This document shows positions 3,242-17,587 of a DNA stretch of 26,978 bases, piece after piece. The stretch is from a virus. Where the stretch lies: positions 1 through 26,978 of the IMG/VR virus record IMGVR_UViG_3300047469_000148; one strand, written 5' to 3'. The translations under genes and the position numbers were made by a program. The notes under the pieces are model-generated. The model was not told the origin of the DNA and searched no databases. It was given only the letters and a program-made list of their open reading frames with translations. Each line of letters begins with the position of its first letter. The stretch's first letter is position 1.

Positions 3242-4523
3242 CGTCCCGCAGGCCAACTTCCTGCAGATGGAGCACAAATTCCGGGCCTTCGTGGCCGGGT
3301 TCGGCTCCGGTAAGACCTGGGTGGGCTGCTCGGCGCTGAGCAAGCACTTCATGGAGTGGCCAGGCGTCAATGCTGGGTACTTCGCGCCAACCTACCCGCA
3401 GATCCGAGACATCTTTTATCCGACGATGGATGAGGTAGCCTTCGACTGGGGGCTGAAGACCAAGATCAACCAGGCGAACCATGAGGTCCACGTCTACAGC
3501 GGCCGCCAGTATCGCGGAACCGTGATTTGTCGCTCAATGGAGAAGCCCCAAACCATCGTGGGCTTCAAGATCGGCCACGCCCTGGTCGATGAGCTGGACG
3601 TGCTGACCGCCATCAAGGCCCAGCAGGCCTGGCGCAAGATCATTGCCCGGATGCGCTACAACGTGGCTGGGCTGAAAAACGGTGTTGACGTCACGACCAC
3701 GCCAGAGGGTTTCAAATTTGTCTACCAGCAGTTCGTAAAACAACTGCGTGAGAAGCCGTCGCTCAACGCCATGTACGGTCTGGTGCAGGCCAGCACATTC
3801 GACAATGAGCTGAACCTGCCGGACGATTACATCCCGTCGTTGATGGAGTCATACCCCGAGCAGCTGATTCAGGCATATCTCGATGGCCAGTTCGTCAACC
3901 TGACGTCCGGATCGATTTACCACGCCTACGACCGTAAGCTGAATCAGTGCTTCGACACGGTCCAGGCTGGCGAGCCGATATTCATCGGGATGGACTTCAA
4001 CGTCGGCAAGATGTCAGCCATCACGCACGTGAAGCGTGAAGGGCTGCCTCGGGCGGTTGATGAGCTGATGGACGGCTACGACACGCCGGACATGATCCGT
4101 CGAATCAAGGAGCGGTACTGGCGCCATGACGGCGACAAATTCGTTAAAACCTGCGAAATCCGCGTTTATCCAGACGCTTCAGGCGACTCCCGCAAGTCTG
4201 TAAATGCCAGCACTACTGACATTGCGCTGATGAAGCAGGCGGGCCTGGCTGTGATCGCGCCGGCGGCCAACCCGCCCGTTAAGGACCGGATCAACGCCAT
4301 GAACGCAATGTTTTGCAACGCCACTGGTGAGCGCCGCTACCTGGTCAATCCGCTCCGGTGCCCGACATATGCTGACAGCCTTGAGCAGCAAGTGTGGGGT
4401 CCGAACGGCGAGCCTGACAAAACACAGGGTAACGACCACCCGAACGACGCCGGCGGCTACTTCATCCACAAGGAATTCCCGATCGTGAAGCGCACCGTCT
4501 CCACTGAAGCCCTGAGTATCTGA
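3228..4523 (+). CDS. Terminase large subunit (packaging ATPase and nuclease)
   Basis: The product is 431 aa. ATG 3228 is chosen because GAGGA (3217-3221) lies at proper spacing; an upstream ATG at 3213 lacks this. The Walker A motif GFGSGKT is at residues 24-30 and the Walker B motif ALVDE at 118-122. The C-terminal nuclease shows its Asp residues in GMDFN (about residue 256), VYPDASG (about 316) and NDHPNDAGG (about 403). The complete set of motifs implies an active motor that translocates DNA into the prohead and cuts it. The length is normal for this family. It lies between the small subunit and the portal, as in most tailed phages. Confidence 0.95.
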   Translation: MPSLNVPQANFLQMEHKFRAFVAGFGSGKTWVGCSALSKHFMEWPGVNAGYFAPTYPQIRDIFYPTMDEVAFDWGLKTKINQANHEVHVYSGRQYRGTVICRSMEKPQTIVGFKIGHALVDELDVLTAIKAQQAWRKIIARMRYNVAGLKNGVDVTTTPEGFKFVYQQFVKQLREKPSLNAMYGLVQASTFDNELNLPDDYIPSLMESYPEQLIQAYLDGQFVNLTSGSIYHAYDRKLNQCFDTVQAGEPIFIGMDFNVGKMSAITHVKREGLPRAVDELMDGYDTPDMIRRIKERYWRHDGDKFVKTCEIRVYPDASGDSRKSVNASTTDIALMKQAGLAVIAPAANPPVKDRINAMNAMFCNATGERRYLVNPLRCPTYADSLEQQVWGPNGEPDKTQGNDHPNDAGGYFIHKEFPIVKRTVSTEALSI

Positions 4524-9654: not shown

Positions 9655-10293
9655 ATGGACGGCGCAAAGCTTCAGGCCAAGATTTACAAGGGCTACGGAC
9701 AGGCAGCAAAGCGCATCGGGTACGACTACCAGCAATTCCGCGCACTGAGCGCGAACGATCCGCTGGCGACCAATGCGCTGCAAACGCTCCCCGCATCCTT
9801 CACTACCAAATTCAGCTACAACGCGCCGAACAAATACGGTGAGGCGACTTGGATTGGGCTGTTCGACGCCCGCCAGTTCGCACCCGGCGACTTCCTCGTT
9901 GGTCGCCAAGGAACATTCTTCATCGCTGCCATGCAGGACACGCTGCCAATCTACTGCGTGCAGACCAATCGCACCGTGGATGTGTTGCGGGTCGGCATGG
10001 CCGGCGGTGTTGGTCTCGGCGGCTGGGCGGGGGATACGGCAGCTACCGAAGCGCCAATCATGCAGGGCTGGCCCGCGAGCATCTTGCAGGGCACCAAGGG
10101 CGAGACGAATGAGGCGAAGCTTCCAGGAGACGTGAAAACGCCTTGGTGGGCGATCCTCTTTCCGGCATGTCCTGGAATCGTTCTGCGCACCAGCGACATC
10201 ATCCGCGATGAACTGGGTCGCAAGTATTTGATTTCCAGCGCTGAACTGACCGACATGGGCTGGCGCATCACTGCCATGCAAGCACAGGTGTGA
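9655..10293 (+). CDS. Putative neck/head completion protein
   Basis: The product is 212 aa, beginning one base after the previous stop. The N-terminus (KLQAKIYKGYGQAAKRIGYDYQQFR) is helical; the rest is beta-rich (GDFLVGRQGTFFIAAMQDTLPIYCVQTNRTVDVLR). It resembles phage proteins that lie between the adaptor and tail terminator genes and that form the neck or stopper. No enzyme motif was found. The role is from synteny; the family is not identified. Confidence 0.65.
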   Translation: MDGAKLQAKIYKGYGQAAKRIGYDYQQFRALSANDPLATNALQTLPASFTTKFSYNAPNKYGEATWIGLFDARQFAPGDFLVGRQGTFFIAAMQDTLPIYCVQTNRTVDVLRVGMAGGVGLGGWAGDTAATEAPIMQGWPASILQGTKGETNEAKLPGDVKTPWWAILFPACPGIVLRTSDIIRDELGRKYLISSAELTDMGWRITAMQAQV

Positions 10294-11580: not shown

Positions 11581-13134
11581 ATGCCCATCTATCCGGCAGG
11601 CAGCTTGAACACGGCGGCGCTTCAGGCACCGGATCTTTACGTCCAGATCGTTCCGCCAAAGACCCGTTACATCAACGGTGTAGCGACCGATATCCTTGGT
11701 ATCGTCGGTGTGGCGGACTGGGGGCCGGTGAACAGCGCAGTTCTGATCGGATCGCCTGGTGATGCCTCGCAGCGGTTTGGCACTCAAACCGTCCGCAAGT
11801 ACGACCTGTGCACCGCGATGGCGGTATCCATCCAGCTTGGCGCCTCCAACATCCGCGCTGTACGAGTGACAGACGGTACAGACACGGCAGCTACCTCAAG
11901 CCTGAAAGACACGGCTGCCGCCAATGGTGTGACACTGACGGCGTTCTACACGGGCACTCTGGGCAATTCACTCAGCGCCGTACTCAGCGCGGGTTCGGCG
12001 GCGTCGAGCTGGAAATTGATCGTCTCGCTGCCCGGCTTGGCGCCAGAAGTCTTCGACAACATCACTGGCACCGCGGCTGCACTGTGGGCGAACATCGTCA
12101 GCGCGGTGAACAACGGTCAGTCCGGCATTCGCGGGCCGTCTCAGTTGGTCATCGCGTCCGTAGGGGCGAGCGCCCTTGCCCCGGCTACCACGCAGACGGT
12201 CACGTTCACGTCTGGCACTTCCGGGAACACCACACTGACGGATGCTGTGCTGATCGGCGTGGATGGTGTGACTGGCGCAACCCGTAAGGGCATGTACGCT
12301 CTGCGCGGCTCGGGCGCTCAAACCGCCAACCTGATCGATGTGACTGACGCGACCCAATGGCCGACCATGCTGACCTTCGGCCTTTCCGAAGGGTGCTACA
12401 TGATCACTCAGGGCCCAGCCGGGGCGTCCTACGCAACCGTGCAGACCAGCCTGACCACTGCGGGCTGCGACAGCTATGCCTTGAAGGTCATGGTCGGGGA
12501 TTGGGTGTATTGGCAGGATCAAGTCAACGCCCAGCAGCGCATGATCGCACCGGCAACCTTCTCGGCGGCCGAAATTGCGGCGCTGTCGCCTAACCAGAGC
12601 CCGTTGAACAAGCCGCTCACCAATGCCGTCTCGACTCAGCGCAATCTGGCTCAGCAGACTTACAGCATTGCCGAGATTGGCGCGATCAATACCGCGCGCC
12701 TGGACGTCATCACCAATCCATGCCCGGGTGGCAGCTACTTCGGTCACCGATCCGGCCTGAACTGCTCGAGCAATGCGGCAGTGAATGGTGACAACTACAC
12801 CCGCATGACGAACTTCATCTCGCTGACAATTGCGGCTTCGTTTGGGGGCACTATTGGCCGCTTGCAAACGCCAGATGTTCGCCGCGAGACGAAATCGACC
12901 ATTGAGAGCTTCCTGCAAACGCTGGTTGAGCAAGGGATGATCGGTGACGTCAACGGCGGTGCTGCATTCTCGGTACAGCTCGACGCCGCCAACAACCCAG
13001 ACGCCCGGGTCGCGCTCGGCTACATGCAGGCTGACGTGCAGGTCAAATACTTGTCTGTGATCCGTTATTTCCTTGTAAACCTCGAAGCCGGTCAGTCGGT
13101 GTCGATCGTGGCGTCCGCCACTCCGCGCACGTAA
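11581..13134 (+). CDS. Contractile tail sheath protein
   Basis: The product is 517 aa with a TTAGGAGAAAGCC ribosome site. N-terminal (PDLYVQIVPPKTRYINGVATDILGIVG, then WGPVNSAVLIGSP) and C-terminal segments (RRETKSTIESFLQTLVEQGMIGDVNGGAAFSVQLD ... QADVQVKYLSVIRYFLVNLEAGQS) are characteristic of tail sheath proteins. It contracts on infection and drives the tube through the outer membrane. The length is normal. It proves that the phage is a myovirus. It sits immediately upstream of the tube gene. Confidence 0.93.
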   Translation: MPIYPAGSLNTAALQAPDLYVQIVPPKTRYINGVATDILGIVGVADWGPVNSAVLIGSPGDASQRFGTQTVRKYDLCTAMAVSIQLGASNIRAVRVTDGTDTAATSSLKDTAAANGVTLTAFYTGTLGNSLSAVLSAGSAASSWKLIVSLPGLAPEVFDNITGTAAALWANIVSAVNNGQSGIRGPSQLVIASVGASALAPATTQTVTFTSGTSGNTTLTDAVLIGVDGVTGATRKGMYALRGSGAQTANLIDVTDATQWPTMLTFGLSEGCYMITQGPAGASYATVQTSLTTAGCDSYALKVMVGDWVYWQDQVNAQQRMIAPATFSAAEIAALSPNQSPLNKPLTNAVSTQRNLAQQTYSIAEIGAINTARLDVITNPCPGGSYFGHRSGLNCSSNAAVNGDNYTRMTNFISLTIAASFGGTIGRLQTPDVRRETKSTIESFLQTLVEQGMIGDVNGGAAFSVQLDAANNPDARVALGYMQADVQVKYLSVIRYFLVNLEAGQSVSIVASATPRT

Positions 13135-13175: not shown

Positions 13176-13190
13176 CATTTGGAGAGCACC

Positions 13191-13622
13191 ATGCCAGGTC
13201 AAGGTGGTTACAACACGGGGAAGGACGTCTCGATCGACATCAACACCCCGACGGGGCCAATTCGGCTCAGCAAGATCATGAACTTCGATTCGAAGCCAAA
13301 AGTGACGAATCAGGAAATCACGCCGCTCAACGGCCAGACCGATGAGCTCATGATTCCCAAGGGCTGGACCGGCAGCTTCGACGCAATGCGCGTTGACTCG
13401 ACGCTGGATGACTGGTGGGCCCAGTTCGAATCTGACTACTTCAACGGCGTGAATCAGAGCCCCGCGACCATCACTGAGACCATTCAGGAAATCAGCGGCG
13501 GTATCACCACCTGGCGCTACACGAACGTCGTGCTGAAGCTGGAAGACGCAGGCAAAAAAGAAGGCGACAAGACGATCAGTCAGTCGGTTTCGTTCACCGC
13601 CCGCCGTCGCATCAAGGTTTAA
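13191..13622 (+). CDS. Tail tube protein
   Basis: The product is 143 aa from ATG 13191 with GGAG at 13181-13184; a TTG at 13179 in the same frame is not needed. The sequence (GKDVSIDINTPTGPIRLSKIMNFDSKPKVTNQEITPLNGQ... GWTGSFDAMRVDSTLDDWWAQFE) fits the tail tube family that follows the sheath in contractile phages. Tube hexamers form the inner conduit for DNA. The size and the position right after the sheath are typical. Confidence 0.88.
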   Translation: MPGQGGYNTGKDVSIDINTPTGPIRLSKIMNFDSKPKVTNQEITPLNGQTDELMIPKGWTGSFDAMRVDSTLDDWWAQFESDYFNGVNQSPATITETIQEISGGITTWRYTNVVLKLEDAGKKEGDKTISQSVSFTARRRIKV

Positions 13623-13713: not shown

Positions 13714-14112
13714 ATGACCAAAGTAACAGTGAAAGAACCGGCCGCGCCTGTCCATGTCGACAAGAAGCCGAAATTCGAATCTGTCGTTGACTCGCTCGGC
13801 CGCACGATTCAGCTTCGCCAGCTCGATCCGTTGCAGCAGGGTCGACTGGTTATGGCTGTAGGCGGTGACGTTTCCGCAAACAGCACCTACATGAACGGCT
13901 TCGCTCTGCCTGCTGCAATGGTGGCGCACATTGATGACCAGTTCTACGGATTCCCATCGAGTGTTCGTGAGATCGAGTCGATGCTCACCCAGTTGGGCGT
14001 CGAAGGGATGGCTGCCATCAACTCCTATCTCTACACCAAAATGCAGGCGCTTCAGGAAGAAGCCGACAAAGAGGCAGCTGCTCAAGCTGAAGTGGCCGCA
14101 GCAAAAAACTAG
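13714..14112 (+). CDS. Tail assembly chaperone G
   Basis: The product is 132 aa, with GAGGA (13701-13705) 8 bases before ATG. It is the short product of the frameshifted chaperone pair found between tube and tape measure in most long-tailed phages. The body is a small folded domain (SVVDSLGRTIQLRQLDPLQQGRLVMAV) with a helical, Ala/Glu/Lys-rich C-terminus. The last codons are GCA AAA AAC TAG, which form the slippery site. The chaperone coats the tape measure and recruits tube subunits; it is not part of the virion. Confidence 0.88.
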   Translation: MTKVTVKEPAAPVHVDKKPKFESVVDSLGRTIQLRQLDPLQQGRLVMAVGGDVSANSTYMNGFALPAAMVAHIDDQFYGFPSSVREIESMLTQLGVEGMAAINSYLYTKMQALQEEADKEAAAQAEVAAAKN

Positions 14113-14300
14113 CCGAGAACCCCGATTTTCGCAGCCGCTGCTGGCTGGTGAAGAACGGGGTTCCATTCGACCGGGTTTTTGATTGCGTCACGCTCGATGA
14201 CTACGAGCGATACGCCTTCTCGATCATGTTTTCCGAGTTTGAGGGGGCAGGCACTTACAACTGGAGCACCCAGCAGTTCGACAAACCTAAAGAGGGCTGA
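13714..14300 (+). CDS. Tail assembly chaperone G-T fusion by -1 programmed frameshift
   Basis: After the heptamer A AAA AAC (14103-14109) ribosomes that slip back one base continue at 14109 (CTA GCC GAG) and read 63 further codons to TGA at 14298-14300, giving a 195-aa fusion. The T part (NPDFRSRCWLVKNGVPFD..., then DDYERYAFSIMFSEFEGAG) has no start codon of its own at a suitable place and would be missed by ordinary gene calling. Coordinates given here cover 13714-14109 joined to 14109-14300. Frame, slippery motif, 7-base spacer and downstream stem all fit the lambda G/GT model. The T domain is expected to bind tube subunits. Confidence 0.85.
14103..14163 (+). promoter_or_regulatory. -1 ribosomal frameshift site (slippery heptamer plus stem)
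   Basis: The heptamer A AAA AAC occupies 14103-14109 in the correct phase (GCA AAA AAC). Seven bases later a perfect 8-bp stem GAACCCCG (14117-14124) / CGGGGTTC (14156-14163) can form, with an inner CAGCC/GGCTG hairpin (14132-14147). The zero-frame stop TAG directly follows the heptamer. Confidence 0.85.
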
Positions 14301-14302
14301 GC

Positions 14303-14788
14303 ATGGAATTCAACAGCATGGCCAAGCTCGGCCTTCATTTGGTGGCGCAGGAGGCTCTGCTGCTGAAAAGCCTGCATGAGGGGCTTGAAAAGTGCGCGGT
14401 TCGGATTGAAGCGACAGCGAAGGCCGAGATCGGCCACTACCAGGCGGCAGCTGGTCCATTCGCCGCCTGGGCTGACTTGGCTGATTCCACCGAAGAGCGA
14501 AAGGCAAAAATGGGGTATCCGGCCGATGCTCCGTTGGAGGCGTCCGGCGAGATGCGCGACAGCATCACGCACACCACCAGCATGCTTGAGTCGGTCATCG
14601 GCTCAACCGATCCCAAGATGTACTACCACGAATTTGGAACACCAAAGATGCCTGCGAGGGCCGTGATGGGCCCTGCAGTCTTCCGAAACAAGGAATACGT
14701 GCGGCGAACGCTGGGACTTGCGACGGTGTCTGGGTTGATCGGAGGCAAGGGGATTCATGCCTCGCTGGGGTACGACATCAAAAGTTGA
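14303..14788 (+). CDS. HK97 gp10-like virion morphogenesis protein
   Basis: The product is 161 aa with AGAGGG upstream and starts 2 bases after the T-frame stop. The helical N-terminus (LKSLHEGLEKCAVRIEATAKAEIG) and the C-terminal YYHEFGTPKMPARAVMGPAVFRNKE are characteristic of the gp10-like head-tail/virion morphogenesis family. Members usually lie between connectors and tail tube genes; here it lies after the chaperones, which is less usual. Its stop TGA is directly followed by the stop of a gene on the opposite strand. Confidence 0.8.
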   Translation: MEFNSMAKLGLHLVAQEALLLKSLHEGLEKCAVRIEATAKAEIGHYQAAAGPFAAWADLADSTEERKAKMGYPADAPLEASGEMRDSITHTTSMLESVIGSTDPKMYYHEFGTPKMPARAVMGPAVFRNKEYVRRTLGLATVSGLIGGKGIHASLGYDIKS

Positions 14789-15316
14789 TTAGTCCAGCTT
14801 GCCCGGACGTGCTTCAGCATTGATAACAGTCTTAGACCCAGGATCGTAGGTGCACTCATAAATGCTGTTCTGATAGGCGCCGAAGCCGTTCTGAAACTGA
14901 ATCTTGTCCCCGATATACGTGATCACGCCTCTGGATTGATCTGCCCATCGCATGTGGTCGAATTTGAACTCAAAAGTCGAGTCAGTCCACTTCGCTGAAT
15001 ATTTCGCCAACTTCTCCACTGCCTTCTGGCATGGGTAGCTAGCCTCAGGAAGCTTGCGCTCCATCCAGCATTGGATGTCTTTTTGGCATTCGGCATCGCT
15101 AACCTTTTTTGGAGCCTCAGCTGCGGGCGCCTTGTCGTCGGAAGAGCTTGAGGATCCGAAATAATGGATGGCTGCCCAAGTCATCCCCACAACGAACAGG
15201 AATCCGATCACCATCTCGCCAGCAGTCGTCGTTGGGTTGCTAATGCCGCAGTGCGGGCATGTTTTAGCGCTCGAAGAGACCTCTTTCTTGCATTCCTTAC
15301 ACTTCTTCAAAGCCAT
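14789..15316 (-). CDS. Membrane protein with N-terminal zinc ribbon, unknown function
   Basis: The product is 175 aa. ATG at 15314-15316 is the natural start; upstream extension is possible but unsupported. Four Cys (C6, C9, C20, C23) form a zinc ribbon (KCKECKK ... TCPHCG), followed by one TM at about residues 35-53, a Ser/Asp/Ala-rich linker and a Cys-containing C-terminal domain (ECQKDIQCWMERK ..., VITYIGDKIQFQNGFGAYQNSIYECTYDPGSK). That C-terminal domain is familiar from uncharacterised proteobacterial proteins. If the zinc ribbon is cytoplasmic, the C-terminal domain would be periplasmic and its Cys could form disulphides. It runs against the tail operon, so it is probably expressed separately, for example in the lysogen. 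Confidence 0.75.
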   Translation of the reverse strand: MALKKCKECKKEVSSSAKTCPHCGISNPTTTAGEMVIGFLFVVGMTWAAIHYFGSSSSSDDKAPAAEAPKKVSDAECQKDIQCWMERKLPEASYPCQKAVEKLAKYSAKWTDSTFEFKFDHMRWADQSRGVITYIGDKIQFQNGFGAYQNSIYECTYDPGSKTVINAEARPGKLD

Positions 15317-15342
15317 GTGGATTCCCTGTTCTTTTATAGCTA

Positions 15343-15531
15343 TCAACCAAAAATAAGCGCGTAAGCAATGAAGCAGAAAACGAACAGTGCGCCGCCGGCA
15401 AACACTAGCCCGAGACTGCTCAGCGTGAACAGCAGCAGTGCGTTTTGAATGCCAAGCTTGGCGGGCTCTTTCTGCCCATCTTCGACCAGCACCCGGCCGC
15501 GCCACTCAAACGTTCGATGCCCCTTTGCCAT
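15343..15531 (-). CDS. Small two-TM membrane protein of the inverted cassette
   Basis: The product is 62 aa from the Met at 15531 (MAKGHRTFEWRG); an in-frame ATG at 15561 would give 72 aa but lacks a ribosome site. After a polar N-terminal region, residues about 29-60 are almost entirely hydrophobic (ALLLFTLSSLGLVFAGGALFVFCFIAYALIFG), long enough for one long or two short TM helices. It ends 26 bases before the zinc-ribbon gene on the same strand, so the two probably form one transcription unit. The function is unknown; membrane location and placement suggest a superinfection-exclusion or other prophage-benefit function, as a guess. Confidence 0.6.
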   Translation of the reverse strand: MAKGHRTFEWRGRVLVEDGQKEPAKLGIQNALLLFTLSSLGLVFAGGALFVFCFIAYALIFG

Positions 15532-15559: not shown

Positions 15560-15565
15560 ATTATG
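15560..15565 (-). promoter_or_regulatory. Possible -10 box of the inverted cassette
   Basis: On the minus strand CATAAT (five of six matches to TATAAT) lies here, overlapping the ATG of the tape measure gene. No good -35 is seen at 16-18 bases. If it is real, transcription would begin near 15553, which favours the 15531 start for the small membrane protein. Confidence 0.2.
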
Positions 15566-17587
15566 GCATTTGAGGCGTATTCCGTCGCCGTCAAGCTGTC
15601 GCTGATCAATCACGTCAGCTCTGGCCTGTTGATGATCAGCAAGAGCCTCGGCACAGCCAGCGCGGATGTCGACAAGCTCAATGCAAAGCTGGCATCGATC
15701 GGCAAGCAGGGCGCTATTGGCGGGCTAATGTTCGCCGGAGGGCTCGGCCTGGCCGCGATGTTCAAGGCGCCTTTGGAGGAAGCGAAGAAATTCCAGAACG
15801 AGACCGAGCGATTCCGGTCGCTTGGCCTGGGCGATGCGGTCACAGCCGACGCCGTGAAGTTCGCCAAGGGCATGAACACCTACGGAACGAGCGTTCGTGA
15901 AAACCTCGGCCTGCTACGTGATGCCCAGACTGTTTTTGGCGACTTCCACGAAGCCCAGATGGTTACACCGCTGCTGGCGAAGATGAAGTTCGCAAACGCG
16001 GCACTCTACGGCGAGGAAGGCGGATCCATGAAGGATAAAGCCTTCATGGATATGCTGAAGGTGATCGAGCTGCGTGGCGGCCTGTCGAGCGAGGCTGCAT
16101 TCCTCAAGCAGGCAAACATGGTCCAGCAGGTGCAGACAGCCACTGGCGGTCGGGTTGGGGCAAACGAATTCCTCAACTTCATCAAGACCGGTGGTGTGGC
16201 CGCAAAAGGCCTGAAAGACGAAAACTTCTACTACATGATGGAGCCGCTCATTCAGGAAATGGGTGGACAGCGTGTGGGCACGGGCTTGATGTCCGGTTAC
16301 CAAAACCTTGTGCAGGGCCGCACAACAATGCGGGCGGCCAATGAGCTGATGCGGCTCGGACTGCTCAACCCCAAGATGGTCGAATACAGCACCACCGGCA
16401 ACATCAAGCAGATAAAACCGGGGGCGCTGAAGGGGGCCGACCTGATGGTCAGCAACCCCATGGAGTGGCTGCAAAAGGTATTGCTTCCATCTTTCGCCGC
16501 GAAAGGCATTACCGGAAATCAGCAGATTCTCAACGAAATCGGTGCGATCTTCACCAACAGAACCGCTGCACAGCTGTATTCGACCATGTACCAGCAACAG
16601 GCGGTTATCGCAAAAAACTCCAAGCTTAACGCCGGTGCTGCCGGGATTGATGAACTGGATAGGAACGCGAAGAACACGCTGAGCGGTAAGGAGATCGAGT
16701 TCACCGCCAAATGGAAAAACCTGATGCTCAACCTTGGCGGCGTAGTGTTGCCGTTGGCTATCACCGCTCTCGATCGACTGAACCCTGCAATGGAGAAGCT
16801 CAACGTCTGGCTGGCTGCAAATCCCGGCGCGGTGTCGAAGCTGACTTACGCGCTCATCGGCCTGTCAGGCTTCCTCATTGGCGGCGGTCTGATCAACATG
16901 GTCATAGCCGCTGGGCGTGGATTTCTACTCCTCGGGCAGGGCATGGCGTTTCTCATGTCGAGAGCGTTAGGCCCTCTGATACCGATTGTTGCGCGTTTTG
17001 GAACCTACCTGGTGATGATCGGAGCCAGCATCGCAAAAGGTGTACTCCTCCTGAGTAGAGCACTCCTGGCCACTCCTGTCGGATTGGTGATCACCGCGAT
17101 AGCCACAGCGGCATTCCTACTCTGGAACAATTGGAAGGAGATCAAGGGCGCGCTGATCGGCATGTGGGCAGGCATCAAGACCGGGTTCATCCAGCTTTTC
17201 AGTGGGGATATCGGTGGGGCCTTCAAATCGTTCAAGCACGTATTTCTCCTGGGCTGGCAAACGATCTTCAACACCCTGATTGCTGGTGCTAACACCATCC
17301 TTCCGGCCTCATGGCAGATTTCGAAGACGACATTTGCCGATGACGCGCGCGCCGCCGGATCTGGTCGGGCTGCCTGGTCCCCGCTCGTGGCGCCGGTCCC
17401 GGGAAAAGGTAGCGGCGGGGGAGATCAGAACATCAACCTATATGTCGACGGCAAGAAAATCTCAGACGTCGTGATTCAGCGCATGGCCAAGGAGGCGGCC
17501 AAGCCGCAGACCGGAACCCAAGGCTTTGACCCTACCCGCAGCATGCTGAGGCCTGGAACCTCCAGCCTCGTCGTTCCGAGGAACTAA
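15563..17587 (+). CDS. Tail tape measure protein
   Basis: The product is 674 aa with AGGAA 8 bases before the ATG. It is the longest gene in the window. The N-terminal half is helical and charged; hydrophobic, membrane-like segments follow at about residues 425-525 (LIGLSGFLIGGGLINMVIAA, VGLVITAIATAAFLLW), then a region rich in Trp/Gly (MWAGIKTGFIQLFSG) and a flexible tail. This is the usual plan of tape measure proteins, which set tail length and pass through the cell membrane. By the rule of about 1.5 Å per residue it would give a tail of about 100 nm; this is an estimate only. Confidence 0.9.
   Translation: MAFEAYSVAVKLSLINHVSSGLLMISKSLGTASADVDKLNAKLASIGKQGAIGGLMFAGGLGLAAMFKAPLEEAKKFQNETERFRSLGLGDAVTADAVKFAKGMNTYGTSVRENLGLLRDAQTVFGDFHEAQMVTPLLAKMKFANAALYGEEGGSMKDKAFMDMLKVIELRGGLSSEAAFLKQANMVQQVQTATGGRVGANEFLNFIKTGGVAAKGLKDENFYYMMEPLIQEMGGQRVGTGLMSGYQNLVQGRTTMRAANELMRLGLLNPKMVEYSTTGNIKQIKPGALKGADLMVSNPMEWLQKVLLPSFAAKGITGNQQILNEIGAIFTNRTAAQLYSTMYQQQAVIAKNSKLNAGAAGIDELDRNAKNTLSGKEIEFTAKWKNLMLNLGGVVLPLAITALDRLNPAMEKLNVWLAANPGAVSKLTYALIGLSGFLIGGGLINMVIAAGRGFLLLGQGMAFLMSRALGPLIPIVARFGTYLVMIGASIAKGVLLLSRALLATPVGLVITAIATAAFLLWNNWKEIKGALIGMWAGIKTGFIQLFSGDIGGAFKSFKHVFLLGWQTIFNTLIAGANTILPASWQISKTTFADDARAAGSGRAAWSPLVAPVPGKGSGGGDQNINLYVDGKKISDVVIQRMAKEAAKPQTGTQGFDPTRSMLRPGTSSLVVPRN

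Follow-up and report, generated by a model that had tools for sequence, protein, structure and literature searches.

A conserved −1 frameshift signal directly abutting a stop codon in a putative G/GT tail assembly chaperone gene of contractile-tailed phages

The virus record IMGVR_UViG_3300047469_000148 carries in its tail module a gene that most probably gives rise to two tail-assembly chaperones, both begun at a single start codon, through a programmed −1 ribosomal frameshift, a reading to which we give a probability of about 0.93. The predicted fusion product GT is 195 residues long (132 + 63). The record was analysed over its whole stretch of 26,978 bases (57% G+C), called here the window. 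The slip site, the adjacent stop, the T frame, a covarying hairpin and the gene neighbourhood are conserved in its relatives. A preliminary description of this DNA had proposed a −1 frameshifted G-T tail chaperone; the conserved signal supports that proposal, and the chaperone role is one that we infer.

Survey of related loci

IMG/VR was queried with G, T and the tube protein, and bacterial genomes in one further search, which together led to 105 distinct loci (77 and 28 added), many of which are closely related, so that the counts given below are not independent events. Codon and covariation tests were carried out on 65 representatives below 92% identity. Neither G nor T has nucleotide or protein similarity in deposited phages. 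One relative is found in Aquitalea and, among 369 scanned genomes of its class, that genome alone matched. The search with the sheath was the only one to reach deposited phages, phiKX1 and phiKX2.

Genetic organization of the tail module

Genes for the sheath, tube, G-T, a gp10-like protein and the tape measure follow one another in the window (Table 1), an order that is maintained in most relatives. The sheath assignment implies that the tail is contractile. A terminase upstream of the sheath gene is indicated by a weak match to TIGR01547.

Table 1. Features of the tail module and of the frameshift signal in the window
Feature	Position	Strand	Basis
Tail sheath gene	11581..13134	+	phrog_23 tail sheath, E 7e-44
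Tail tube gene	13179..13622	+	phrog_12993 (function unknown); 147 aa; named from synteny and from lying between the sheath gene and G
G part, 0-frame putative tail assembly chaperone	13714..14112	+	ORF, 132 aa, end ...AAAKN-stop
Slippery heptamer A AAA AAC, −1 phase	14103..14109	+	Sequence, conservation, zero synonymous differences
T part, −1 frame extension	14109..14300	+	Open frame, 63 codons and TGA
0-frame stop TAG, abutting the heptamer	14110..14112	+	Sequence; immediate stop in 102/105 loci
Putative stimulatory hairpin	14117..14163	+	Folding, pairing conservation, compensatory changes
gp10-like / neck1 tail-completion gene, directly 3' of T	14303..14788	+	phrog_26, E 7e-12; TIGR01725, E 6.5e-6
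Zinc-ribbon protein gene	14789-15505	−	phrog_13160
Tape measure gene	15563..17587	+	phrog_28, E 2e-43

The positions given in the preliminary description are all correct on direct reading. Its placement of the locus between the tube and tape measure genes holds for the window, with the reservation that the gp10-like gene and the minus-strand zinc-ribbon gene separate T from the tape measure gene. The latter opposes the direction of the tail operon, homology suggests that it starts near 15316, and it looks like an inserted cargo gene. Additional DNA is found at other places of the module in relatives: about 1.5 kb separates T from gp10 in locus L001 (6400-8050) and about 0.7-1 kb separates the tube gene from G in L030 and L032, which suggests that the tail module of these phages tolerates insertions.

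Slip site and adjacent stop codon

The G reading frame terminates with GCA AAA AAC TAG, and the heptamer lies in the X_XXY_YYZ phase for −1 slippage, as described earlier. A bare heptamer of this kind is not unusual (four in the window versus 2.3 expected). We considered chance as the source of the signal: the heptamer count alone proves nothing, and conservation excludes chance. A AAA AAC is found in phase in all 105 loci. Heptamer and −1 frame, whose loss in related phages had been named as a possible refutation, are kept in every related locus. Among the loci drawn by G or the tube protein, and not by T, 77 of 77 have the in-phase heptamer with an immediate stop; the conservation is thus not a product of T-based searching. 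The heptamer takes its first A from a codon that ends in A in every case, and AAA AAC is invariant, with zero synonymous differences over these three codons against about 2500 expected in pairwise comparisons. In the window, AAA makes up only 35% of the lysine codons and GCA 21% of the alanine codons.

The stop directly abuts the heptamer as TAG in 82 loci, TGA in 16 and TAA in 4, and the base that follows it is C in 93 of these 102. The only loci with the 0-frame stop two codons past the heptamer (TCG CCC TGA) are L109, L111 and L115 (near position 4001). These three loci serve as a natural control for what the abutting stop contributes and show that it is not strictly required. Outside these three loci the first codon of T is CTA or CTG (synonymous ratio 0.52), as the abutting stop starts with the second and third bases of this codon.

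The absence of any base between heptamer and stop is unusual when compared to phage lambda, where the slip heptamer G_GGA_AAG lies 15 nt ahead of the G stop, to phage P2, where 18 nt separate T_TTT_TTG from the stop, and to the PRFect paper, which gives mean distances of 26 nt for SEA-PHAGES and 36 nt for the phages of Xu et al. (PMC10885494). A search of the literature for stops placed directly at slip sites gave no result, which does not by itself prove that the zero gap is novel. The heptamer is not new for G/T genes, since A_AAA_AAC was named as the G/T slip site of the archaeal virus HCTV-2 (PMC5009743). In E. coli it is reported to be much less shift-prone than A_AAA_AAG (PMC5009743) and the rate of shifting may therefore be low.

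A covarying hairpin downstream of the slip site

An 8-bp stem, GAACCCCG/CGGGGTTC (14117-14124 / 14156-14163), begins after a 7-nt spacer from the heptamer, in agreement with the preliminary description. It is followed by a 1x1 mismatch and an upper stem (14126-14136/14143-14154). Folding of positions 14103-14170 gives -31.5 kcal/mol versus a mean of -17.7 for dinucleotide shuffles (z -4.7). The lower stem has 8/8 pairs in 96 of 103 loci and 7.92 of 8 pairs on average, while sliding one arm by at least 1 base leaves 5.1 or fewer. Compensated states of the lower stem replace CCCC/GGGG by CTCC/GGAG in 5 loci and by CGCT/GGCG in 3 loci, and doubly changed cells over 19 pairs amount to 22 versus 7.3 in shuffles.

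In the proposed check on synonymous substitution, the heptamer and the two arms of the stem are frozen, and the other positions are free to change. T codons 4-5 and 16-18, which form the stem arms, have observed/expected synonymous ratios of 0.09, 0.27, 0.24, 0.10 and 0.00. Codon 3, just before the 5' arm, has a ratio of 0.16 and codon 14, in the upper stem, of 0.34; the remaining T codons are mostly near or above 1 (about 1.1 elsewhere in T). The synonymous freeze together with the compensatory stem changes indicates that the shift signal is constrained beyond the protein sequence.

Upstream of the heptamer, relatives have a purine-rich GAGCAGG stretch at 7-20 nt (e.g., L004 4970-4994) with synonymous ratios of 0.31 and 0.12. 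Pairing of this region to the anti-Shine-Dalgarno sequence has a mean of -5.0 kcal/mol in relatives versus a background of -2.5, and GAGCAGG is possibly a 5' stimulator. A Shine-Dalgarno-like stimulator was dropped as part of the signal of the window, where the pairing is weak (-2.4 kcal/mol).

The T part, a protein domain encoded in the −1 frame

The −1 frame, entered at C14109, stays open through 63 codons until the TGA at 14298-14300, two bases ahead of the gp10-like gene and its ATG at 14303, as noted before. T has about 60-65 codons in relatives, and its frame is free of stops in 65/65 representatives, whereas the two alternative frames have on average 2.9 and 4.0 stops per 60 codons. Among these representatives, differences between pairs by codon position of the −1 frame are 0.37/0.28/0.57, most of them at the third. 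Fourteen residues are invariant across 43 diverse sequences, and T forms a conserved protein family present in more than 100 loci. AlphaFold2 models were made of G and T apart, and that of T has a pLDDT of 92. Comparison of T with known families, a check also suggested by the preliminary description, gives no match in Pfam, PHROG and NCBIfam, while its conservation in the −1 frame is that of a protein; its fold gives nothing above Z 2.3 against the PDB. The statement that T is invisible to gene calling based on start codons was too strong, since an internal GTG at 14148 opens a truncated ORF of 50 codons. The corresponding codon 14 of T is ATG, GTG or TTG in 53 of 65 relatives.

Assignment of G as a putative tail assembly chaperone

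The G part belongs to phrog_20383 (E 3e-14), whose function is unknown, and matches no named chaperone family in Pfam, PHROG and NCBIfam. Sequence searches of the PDB with G and T profiles gave no meaningful match. The G model (pLDDT 84) yields weak structural hits. The first row of the Foldseek search is the tail assembly chaperone of HK97 (2ob9, E 0.51), and VIA places YqbN (3klu) and 2ob9 within its first three rows (Z 4.5 and 3.4), values below confident homology. In the BFVD, G matches the tail assembly chaperone of Bacillus phage Gemini with an E of 0.015. Sequence similarity is low across the G/GT class (PMC5009743), so membership does not require homology to a named chaperone family. 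The tail-chaperone role is deduced from gene order, the G-GT architecture and the weak fold match, and not from homology to lambda G/T; the argument from position and architecture was laid out for lambda (PMC5009743).

Komagataeibacter phages phiKX1 and phiKX2

These phages are distant homologues of the window phage, with 41% identity in the sheath and 30% in the gp10-like protein; their G and T have diverged beyond the reach of tblastn searches with the proteins of the window. They share the same gene order, A_AAA_AAC followed directly by TGA, a −1 T frame and a long hairpin. In phiKX1, an isolated phage, the matching place reads GGC AAAAAAC TGA in the same phase with an open −1 frame, and the stem GGCACCCCG/CGGGGTGCC pairs with bases that differ from those of the window. 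The T part of phiKX1 was deposited as a separate hypothetical gene, PhiKX1_590 (BCZ76064.1; positions 9866-10045 of our locus L128), of 59 aa with an internal ATG start and no annotated frameshift. This gene appears to have been misannotated and to be the C-terminal extension that frameshifting adds to PhiKX1_580, not a separate gene. Both phages are temperate, and the mitomycin-induced particles of the source study all had contractile tails (PMC8566455).

Comparison with known G/GT systems

Like lambda G/GT, the locus has the architecture of two products from one start with a −1 shift close to the 3' end of G, the same heptamer phase, and a position between the tube (V in lambda) and tape measure (H) genes. 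It differs from lambda in the gp10-like gene that follows T ahead of the tape measure gene and in the length of T, 63 codons versus an annotated 144, with no sequence similarity detected between the two. P2 E/E+E' shares with it the setting of a contractile-tailed temperate phage and a −1 product encoded between the tube (FII) and tape measure (T) genes; G and T give no sequence match to a P2-type family. The mechanism of G/GT frameshifted chaperones is already known, and the data essentially support a G/GT pair in a previously unnamed protein family.

Proposed mechanism and alternatives

We infer the occurrence of the shift, its efficiency, its tandem-slip mechanism and the chaperone roles of its products as follows. 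Most ribosomes would terminate at TAG 14110 to give G (132 aa). A minority would pause at the hairpin, which begins 7 nt past the heptamer, and the tRNA-Lys and tRNA-Asn bound at A AAA AAC would together slip one base back onto AAA AAA. Decoding would restart at CTA (Leu) and add the 63-codon T domain, giving GT (195 aa). By analogy to lambda, G would coat the tape measure protein and GT, present in small amounts, would recruit tube subunits through T; both would leave before virion maturation.

The fusion could also arise if RNA polymerase slipped on the six-A run, present in every locus, to give mixed mRNAs without any ribosomal slip; slippage of this type has been established as an alternative for other genes (PMC5009743). 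The run is invariably A6C in X_XXY_YYZ phase, and a covarying hairpin at a fixed 7-nt spacing is a requirement of ribosomal shifting. Six A are also short for slippage by a bacterial polymerase, and we consider this origin very improbable. We judge it just as implausible that T is a separate small protein started within the hairpin at codon 14 (GTG 14148) with no fusion. The frequent start codons at this place, which make some T-only product possible, and the separate gene called by the annotators of phiKX1 speak for it. However, the start called in phiKX1 is a different codon, and the strongly conserved LAxNPDFR precedes codon 14 in the same frame. No Shine-Dalgarno is found before codon 14, where pairing is -1.5 kcal/mol in the window versus -5.8 for G and -6.3 for gp10, and the mean in relatives of -2.5 kcal/mol equals background. 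The start-like codon is also explained by a Val/Met/Leu residue combined with upper-stem pairing, and independent initiation leaves the frozen heptamer unexplained.

If the shift is real, its product might still be some other tail factor, as the lack of a named family match by sequence and the weak fold match would allow. The location between the tube and tape measure genes, the two-product architecture with a −1 shift and the presence of the HK97 tail chaperone 2ob9 among the best-ranked PDB folds argue against this, and we hold it to be unlikely. We favor the programmed ribosomal frameshift in a tail chaperone gene, within which the abutting stop might either aid the slip or do no more than trim G. 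A tentative variant, to which we give a minor share of credence, makes the stop itself part of the frameshift mechanism: standing in the A site and usually followed by C, it would slow release while the peptidyl-tRNA on AAC slips. If this variant is true, the G:GT ratio would be set by termination efficiency, through release factor supply, and by the hairpin.

Significance

The analysis gives a name to a putative pair of G/T chaperones shared by a widespread group of phages and prophages with contractile tails, among them about a hundred unannotated relatives. As T has no model in three family libraries, tail-assembly genes of this group are likely misannotated. The 105 loci form a compact, naturally occurring collection for the study of a −1 shift signal in which the A6C heptamer and the spacing are fixed, the hairpin covaries and, in nearly all members, the stop is fused to the slip site. 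How termination contributes to −1 shifting becomes directly testable by exchange or relocation of the stop.
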